This document shows, one piece after another, positions 3,385 to 21,496 of a stretch of DNA of 33,646 bases. This DNA comes from Oligoflexia bacterium (GTDB taxonomy: Bacteria > Bdellovibrionota > Bdellovibrionia > JABDDW01). Within the stretch, counting starts at the first letter, position 1. The number at the start of each line of letters is the position of its first letter. A model generated the notes under the pieces. It worked only from the letters and a program-made list of their open reading frames with translations. It was not told the origin of the DNA and searched no databases. The stretch spans positions 1 through 33,646 of the forward strand of contig JADLCR010000014.1 of the NCBI GenBank assembly GCA_020847095.1. Direction: 5' to 3'. The position numbers and the translations under genes are program-made.

Positions 3385-3744
3385 TTATTTGGCAGGCGGA
3401 TCGTCGGGAAGTTGGGAGCCGGAGGGAAGACTCCGGGCATCCAAAGTAAGCCTAATCTGAGTGGCCCACGGTCCACCCATGTAATCATTCACCTTCTTGA
3501 GAATTTCCGTACGAGCAAAATAGAGTTGATTCATCCAAGCCGAGCTGACCGTCCAAATATAGAGAATTCCTTTGGAAAACCCGACCGGCGAGCACTTGGC
3601 CGCAATCGTGGGACCCACAACTTGAGGCCAAACACGCTTCAAACGGTATCTTTTAAAGTCCTCGGCAAGCGGTGAATTGCCTTTTTCAAGCAACCCCTGT
3701 AAGACATTAAGCGCAGAATCTGGAATTTCATCATCGTTTTTCAT
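3385..3744 (-). CDS. DciA-like (DUF721) protein, likely DnaB helicase loader
   Basis: The frame is open from an ATG at 3804, but that would overlap the trmFO start, so I prefer the internal ATG at 3744 (119 residues, starting MKNDDEIPDSALNVL). The core VWPQVVGPTIAAKCSPVGF, then LYIWTVSSAWMNQLYFARTE, matches the DUF721/DciA fold. DciA proteins help recruit or load the replicative helicase DnaB in bacteria lacking DnaC or DnaI. The assignment rests on the W-x-x-x-V-G and S-x-x-W-x-x-x-L pattern. It is transcribed away from trmFO with about 30 nt between the starts. No strong Shine-Dalgarno is visible, so the start is the least certain part. Confidence 0.75.
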   Translation of the reverse strand: MKNDDEIPDSALNVLQGLLEKGNSPLAEDFKRYRLKRVWPQVVGPTIAAKCSPVGFSKGILYIWTVSSAWMNQLYFARTEILKKVNDYMGGPWATQIRLTLDARSLPSGSQLPDDPPAK

Positions 3745-21076: not shown

Positions 21077-21128
21077 TTACCACTCGCTTTTAGTAAATGA
21101 TCACTGGTACAGTCTGAGCCTCGTAGCC
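21077..21128. repeat. Degenerate copy A of the tRNA-Leu downstream repeat
   Basis: The first 29 bases differ from copy C (starting 21355) at only one position, and GAGCCTCGTAGC recurs exactly 39 bases into each copy without gaps. The hairpin arm sequence between them has lost its pairing, and the tRNA 3' fragment is absent. Confidence 0.8.
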
Positions 21129-21130
21129 AT

Positions 21131-21210
21131 TGCTCTTAGTAAATGATCACCAAGACAACCCGAGCCTCTCGCTTCGCTCGCTCGGGTTGTGGTGCGCGAG
21201 GGGGGATTTG
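21131..21210 (-). repeat. Copy B: repeat, hairpin and tRNA-Leu 3'-end fragment
   Basis: It contains the shared TTAGTAAATGATCAC block, a hairpin with 11-bp arms (ACAACCCGAGC 21155-21165, GCTCGGGTTGT 21180-21190), and a 21-nt exact copy (21190-21210) of the 3' end of tRNA-Leu including CCA, acceptor strand and part of the T-arm. The tRNA body is missing beyond that. The minus strand orientation is that of the tRNA. Confidence 0.85.
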
Positions 21211-21264
21211 GCTACTTTGTCGTTCGCCTCCGGCTCGCTCCTGCGTAGCCTCTCCTCGTTCGCT

Positions 21265-21287
21265 AAATCAGACTTCCTGTCTGATTT
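21265..21287. repeat. 9-bp hairpin between repeat copies
   Basis: Arms AAATCAGAC and GTCTGATTT with loop TTCCT. ATCAGACTT recurs at about 21335. It lies in the unexplained 21211-21354 stretch between copies B and C, in which I see no gene. Confidence 0.5.
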
Positions 21288-21354
21288 TGCGCTCACTCGA
21301 TTCAAATGTATTTGGTGAGAGGCAACTGATTTTAGATCAGACTTGAACGCAAGT

Positions 21355-21413
21355 TTACCACCCGCTTTTAGTAAATGATCACTATGAAAGCTCGAGCCTC
21401 GTAGCTCGAGCTT
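21355..21413 (-). repeat. Copy C: repeat and hairpin directly after tRNA-Leu
   Basis: This is the intact 3' flank of the tRNA. On the minus strand the CCA end runs into a hairpin with 11-bp arms (AAAGCTCGAGC 21387-21397, GCTCGAGCTTT 21404-21414; loop 6 nt), then the conserved block ending at 21355. The arms differ from copy B but still pair, which points to a selected structure such as a terminator or processing signal. Confidence 0.8.
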
Positions 21414-21496
21414 TGGTGCGCGAGGGGGGATTTGAACCCCCATGGTTTCCCGCTAGAACCTGAATCTAGTGCGTCTGCCAGTTTCGCCACTCGCGC
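21414..21496 (-). tRNA. tRNA-Leu (CAG)
   Basis: The minus strand folds with acceptor GCGCGAG/CTCGCGC, discriminator A and encoded CCA. It has the anticodon stem CTAGA/TCTAG with loop TTCAGGT (anticodon CAG), a long variable arm (CGGGAAACCAT region) typical of a class II tRNA, and T-arm GGGGG/CCCCC with loop TTCAAAT. Confidence 0.95.

Follow-up and report, generated by a model that had tools for sequence, protein, structure and literature searches.

What are the degenerate repeats that accompany a tRNA-Leu gene in this 33,646-nt stretch of DNA (the window)? A preliminary description had reported three copies in register, with a shared block, two tRNA tails and two 11-bp hairpins, and had proposed either a collapsed tandem tRNA duplication or a repeat family that inserts at tRNA ends. 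The elements themselves are as described. The block TTAGTAAATGATCAC occurs at 21090, 21136 and 21368, its sole matches in the window even allowing 3 mismatches (shuffles average 0.73), and the copies of the 21-nt tRNA tail (CAAATCCCCCCTCGCGCACCA) at 21190-21210 and 21414-21434 do not differ. The three copies are in register too, beginning at 21077, 21123 and 21355 (identity to the first copy: 65% and 84%), although the second starts at 21123 instead of 21131. What had been missed is that the relevant strand is the minus strand, on which all these features lie downstream of tRNA-Leu, and that the most conserved part of the array is a unit at 21210-21309. The 435-nt stretch folds better than 100 of 100 shuffles (z = -5.1).

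On the minus strand, the array begins at its anchor gene, tRNA-Leu(CAG) (21414-21496; ARAGORN, Rfam RF00005), whose final 21 nt (21414-21434) are the first tail, T. A hairpin of 11 bp (AAAGCTCGAGC/GCTCGAGCTTT, 21387-21414) starts at the last A of CCA; it is a terminator-like trailer without a T run, and a simple scan called no intrinsic terminator in the stretch. Copy C of the block (GTGATCATTTACTAA, 21368-21382) follows, and then the structured unit (21309-21210). The unit opens with ACATTTGAA (21301-21309), a decayed inverted tail, T', in which ATTTGAA still matches the T-loop complement; it was placed by hand from the unit consensus, and automatic placements chose a different spot. The core then runs through a purine-rich linker (21289-21300), where comparison with intact units shows hairpin PB to be missing, hairpin PC (AAATCAGAC-AGGAA-GTCTGATTT, 21265-21287) with its C-NNGAN-G pentaloop, a second purine-rich linker (21251-21264) and hairpin PD (21210-21250), which ends at the second tail (21190-21210). 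Here a hairpin of 11 bp with different arms (ACAACCCGAGC/GCTCGGGTTGT, 21155-21190) again starts at the last A of CCA, and is followed by copy B of the block (21136-21150) and by copy A, a third, truncated flank (21077-21128; direct repeat family D1) that has the block (21090-21104) and no tail. With PB gone and T' reduced to ATTTGAA, the window unit is an old one. A 98-codon ORF (21147-21443, minus strand) begins in the tRNA tail and crosses the unit; it is most likely spurious.

A structured unit behind tRNA and tmRNA genes

The layout recurs in this genome. Another contig has a closely similar array downstream of tRNA-Leu(GAG), followed 2 kb further on by a third tail-plus-hairpin, which is decayed. 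Of the 38 tRNA genes surveyed, 11 (Leu, Arg, Gly, Pro, His, Met, Ser) have an exact copy of their own tail ~160-550 nt downstream. Such copies start within the T-loop, at a point 17-21 nt short of the tRNA end, and mostly stop within a few nt of that end. The block, earlier suggested as the thing to look for in the genome and its relatives, proved no hallmark of the family: with at most 1 mismatch it is found only at the two related tRNA-Leu loci of this genome, and near-matches outside it lie mostly away from tRNAs.

Other repeats were noticed at tRNA ends. A second type of unit, class II, stands behind Arg, Pro and Ser tRNAs (G000 L020, L036, L038, L041, L048 and L086); it consists of a direct copy of the 5' half of the T-arm, hairpins with AGGAT/ACGAT loops and then the 3' half of the T-arm to CCA, and looks as if 65-100 nt had been inserted in the T-loop. 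Arg, Cys, Pro and Met tRNAs have long hairpins immediately behind their CCA, and these share inner sequence (e.g. CTTTGTCG...CACCTGCGTCG) and make up a further tRNA-end repeat family (G000 L020, L029, L037, L038, L041 and L044). Downstream of several tRNAs, GCTACTT or GGCTAA repeats resembling integrase arm-type sites adjoin units (G000 L024, L025, L028, L037, L267 and L268).

To describe the unit we used a covariance model of 78 nt that holds no tRNA sequence (hairpin PC with its C-NNGAN-G loop, linker, hairpin PD) and that matches the window at 21210-21287 with 89.7 bits. Within the class, 13 of 144 genomes had matches; in the phylum as a whole it was 47 of 369, spanning ten families, with a maximum of 14 per genome (in the 1.5-Mb genome G063). 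Nearly all the matches examined sit just behind a tRNA or tmRNA gene, and unit loci in other families of the phylum are again mostly behind tRNA genes. ARAGORN called a tRNA at most 800 bp upstream, on the same strand, for 37 of 47 aligned units; of the other 10, most are at contig ends or are additional copies in tandem, and most continue into a tRNA tail. One unit lies directly behind a tmRNA gene (L354, 562-1135), so the anchor is not restricted to tRNAs. This shared architecture behind many tRNAs, in the genome and across the phylum, strongly supports a repeat family inserting at tRNA ends. A collapsed tRNA duplication is not supported, because copying is confined to the tail from the T-loop on, a conserved non-tRNA core lies in between, and the cores do not follow tRNA identity. 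At four loci (L253, L280, L076 and L268) the last tandem copy ends abruptly inside the core, at hairpin PB or PC.

The fold of the unit is heavily conserved. Across 45 distinct sequences, pairing holds in 96.3% of alignment cells, with changes on both sides at 16 of 17 pairs (173 cells); none of 500 shuffles attained the observed pairing and covariation, and shifting the partner by one column brought pairing below 40%. Because the alignment was fitted to the model it leans to structure, yet this bias by itself could not produce so large a contrast. For the unit, the compensatory change and functional structure claimed in the preliminary description are supported, by massive covariation; the two small hairpins that had prompted the claim amount to a comparison of two sequences. 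The tRNA-sense strand folds on average 11.3 kcal/mol better than its complement, of which dinucleotide shuffles account for 6.5; the remaining difference is significant (Wilcoxon p = 2e-10, treating related sequences as independent). Such strand-biased folding points to a unit acting as single-stranded nucleic acid in the tRNA sense, be it RNA or DNA. Scanning the window and four unit loci with cmscan gave no Rfam family that matches the unit, in the four loci down to E = 1, and phages and plasmids held no match to the units. Among viral contigs there was a single pattern match, in a coding region of a microvirus-like contig, which we took as chance.

Inverted tails, modular order and cargo

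To the left of the core stands T', an inverted copy of the T-loop and the 3' strand of the T-stem (T54 to C65). Its agreement with its own tRNA extends to 10.4 of 12 positions, where shuffled tRNAs give 8.3 (sd 0.19); when the shuffling is confined to single genomes, the T-stem match also falls, from 3.83 to 3.34 of 5. At many loci T' runs on through the acceptor end into the flanking terminator (near-perfectly in L243), and over 52 loci the inverted tail plus flank reaches a local alignment score of 42.3, compared to 19.3 (sd 0.9) for mismatched partners. This extension into the flank sets the downstream order as T, flank, T', core, T; the full anatomy is a tail T, flank or cargo, T', a core (multi-branched fold, ~125 nt) and a tail T, usually with a terminator between unit and tRNA. 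In 15 of 27 units the flank after the second tail parts from the post-tRNA flank within 3 nt, which is what an exchange inside the tail would produce; for this reason a target-site duplication of the whole flank was rejected. Core similarity tracks the genome (0.674) and not the tRNA (0.565 vs 0.550 background), whereas the arms track the tRNA. In one pair of tRNA-His units (L352, 936-1016 vs 3558-3638) the apex of PB is apparently inverted (GGCCAAAGCC vs GGCTTTGGCC), as would be expected if hairpins extrude or templates switch. In L242, the tRNA-Ser(GGA) called beside the unit has an odd T-arm and the displaced tail is normal-looking; the gene may be damaged.

The arrays are modular. As an example, tRNA-Pro(CGG) is followed by cassettes alpha and beta and then a terminator, and tRNA-Pro(GGG) by beta and then alpha, with 97-98% identity; the cassettes are joined by the tail common to both tRNAs, and end in a class II unit rather than the modelled core. 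Most cassettes are without any gene, the units being about 0.2 kb, but larger ones have cargo. Between two units behind a tRNA-His (G212) lie a nucleotidyltransferase/HEPN (HEPN/MNT) pair and an SBBP-repeat protein; behind a tRNA-Trp (G302), with proximal and distal units that are apparently identical, a BrnA-type antitoxin, a DUF4160 protein and a papain-family peptidase; and behind the tRNA-Leu(GAG) of this genome, an HTH protein and a weak match to a YafQ-like toxin. Two units behind a tmRNA (G187) are ~12.7 kb of genes apart. Units also come and go: they differ between two genomes of one genus (G075 and G113), with remnants at His and Gln in G113, and are found at none of 29 surveyed tRNAs of G002, from the window's own family. 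A search by neighbouring genes for an empty site in close relatives returned only distant relatives.

No integrase was seen among the families scanned in the three cargo loci, nor in the gene list, read by eye, of the G187 tmRNA island. At class level, only one unit (C45) adjoins an integrase gene, and another (C33, with a His tail) abuts repeated GCTACTT motifs resembling integrase arm sites. Tyrosine recombinase matches are present in 16 of 16 genomes checked, but their total is no more than two or three in two of the unit-bearing genomes.

Origin of the arrays

From these data we propose, with a probability of roughly one half, an integron-like, tRNA-anchored cassette system in which a folded single-stranded site is recombined by a recombinase acting in trans. 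The proposal is made because of the integron-like layout, swaps, cargo, lack of a cis integrase and strand bias, because tyrosine integrases are known to target tRNA genes (PMC4383910), and because T would pair with T' in a single strand. T', core and T together would be the candidate attachment site: in a single-stranded circle, T and T' would pair to reproduce the T-arm of the tRNA in double-stranded form, with the core fold as a cap, and the recombinase would exchange this folded site with the T-loop of a tRNA gene. The incoming tail would restore the tRNA and the old tail would be displaced downstream, so that arrays would grow beside the tRNA. The window repeats are then best read as mobile cassettes, most of them non-coding, that form a short array at the 3' end of tRNA-Leu and have partly decayed. 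The observations themselves cover the structured family, its link to tRNA and tmRNA genes, the anatomy of T, T', core and T, the modular order, the integrase-free cargo and the remnants; the recombination, its single-strand character and the recombinase in trans are what we infer from them. In favour of the cassette system we count the tail copies starting in the T-loop, the position of units behind tRNA and tmRNA genes across the phylum, the covariation, the tRNA-matched T' and its extension into the flank, the strand bias, the early divergence of the two flanks, the tRNA-Pro order swap, the cargo, and the gains, losses and remnants; against it, that no recombinase is tied to the units, that cores follow the genome, and that neither an excised circle nor a pair of empty and filled sites was seen. 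Since core similarity follows the genome, cores reach tRNAs with different tails, which simple cassette exchange leaves unexplained; gene conversion, or copying of the target into T', would have to be added.

The strand-specific stability and strong covariation would also suit a transcribed structured RNA (a tRNA trailer or small RNA) whose tandem copies arise by unequal recombination between tail repeats, as in rtT. Tandem copies of which the last is truncated, and terminator-like hairpins inside arrays, agree with this too. However, the unit is usually cut off from its tRNA by a terminator, the absence from G002 and the patchiness within a genus are awkward for such an RNA, and so are order swaps and cargo; we hold this explanation to be unlikely. 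Cores that are alike within a genome, with arms that match the local tRNA, could also reflect a mobile core whose insertion copies the local tail and flank twice, inverted as T' and direct as T, e.g. by fold-back DNA synthesis or by reverse transcription primed at the terminator hairpin. The extension of T' through the flank at many loci, L243 above all, speaks for such target templating, but in those 15 of 27 units the second tail has a flank of its own rather than a copy of the first one's, and cargo may lie between T and T', making this route rather improbable in our view.

We give little credence to the idea that units are inert scars of integrase-encoding tRNA-gene islands, i.e. attachment ends left after deletion of the interior. 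The tails do coincide with the classical endpoints of tDNA islands (PMC4383910), and the C45 unit beside an integrase and the C33 unit beside arm-site-like GCTACTT motifs would fit. Yet a 96%-paired, covarying fold with tRNA-matched arms across ten families is not expected of scars, and the covariation weighs strongly against them.

If the proposed cassette system is real, gene capture through folded single strands would not be limited to integrons, and any tRNA gene would be a possible anchor. It would help explain integrase-free toxin-antitoxin islands at tRNA tails and would provide a natural platform for cassettes in the phylum. Should one of the rival explanations be right instead, an unnamed, strongly covarying structure at tRNA tails in ten families would still merit a name and an Rfam covariance model.

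Comparison with known systems

IntI recombines folded attC sites, whose consensus boxes are RYYYAAC / GTTRRRY, and XerCD recombines the folded attP of CTXphi. Like integron cassettes (attC/attI, IntI), the cassettes described here stand in tandem at one anchor without an integrase of their own, each ends in a site with imperfect inverted repeats, which folds on one strand, and toxin-antitoxin genes are among the cargo. Unlike them, they are anchored at the T-loop of tRNA or tmRNA genes, at many loci, their arms are tRNA T-arm sequence and their core is ~125 nt long and multi-branched; an IntI-type integrase (TIGR02249) was found in 0 of 369 genomes at E ≤ 1e-40, in a search without a working positive control. 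In the attP of CTXphi, two inverted core sites separated by ~90 nt make up a site in single-stranded DNA only. The units here would share such a pairing of inverted sites, whereas CTXphi targets dif and is phage-borne. The rtT RNA (RF00391) of the E. coli tyrT operon is likewise made of repeats that follow a tRNA in tandem and close with its last nucleotides, but it is confined to one locus in enterobacteria, and cmscan with RF00391 gave no match in the window or the four unit loci.

The closest arrays at tRNA genes are of two kinds. The accessible text on additive flexible islands, or tRNA-targeted cassettes, of marine and freshwater bacteria describes cassettes added to tRNA genes and recognisable from direct repeats of the tRNA's final ~20 bp (Actinomarinales, PMC7771536; Methylophilaceae, PMC10872708); it mentions neither a structured unit nor an inverted tail, both the hallmark of the units here. 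The direct tRNA-end repeat at the end of each cassette and the variable cassette content (between G075 and G113, and in the tRNA-Pro swap within one genome) are found here as well. In tDNA islands (Islander, PMC4383910) and tycheposons, as is proposed for our units, the tRNA is restored at one end, a fragment is displaced at the other and the crossover falls in the 3' part of the tRNA. Those elements are defined by, or carry, a tyrosine recombinase, whereas our units of ~0.2 kb carry none, and coordinates of unit and integrase coincide only at C45. Literature searches, which covered few subscription journals, found no description of such units. Arrays of cassettes anchored at tRNAs are already known, and what sets the present ones apart from their descriptions is the structured unit with its inverted tail, giving a distinct chance of a new kind of system. 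That it might be a second, independent kind of integron, phylum-wide, anchored at tRNA and tmRNA T-loops, with a folded site built on an inverted tail and a recombinase, possibly of the Xer type, acting in trans, is a more tentative suggestion.
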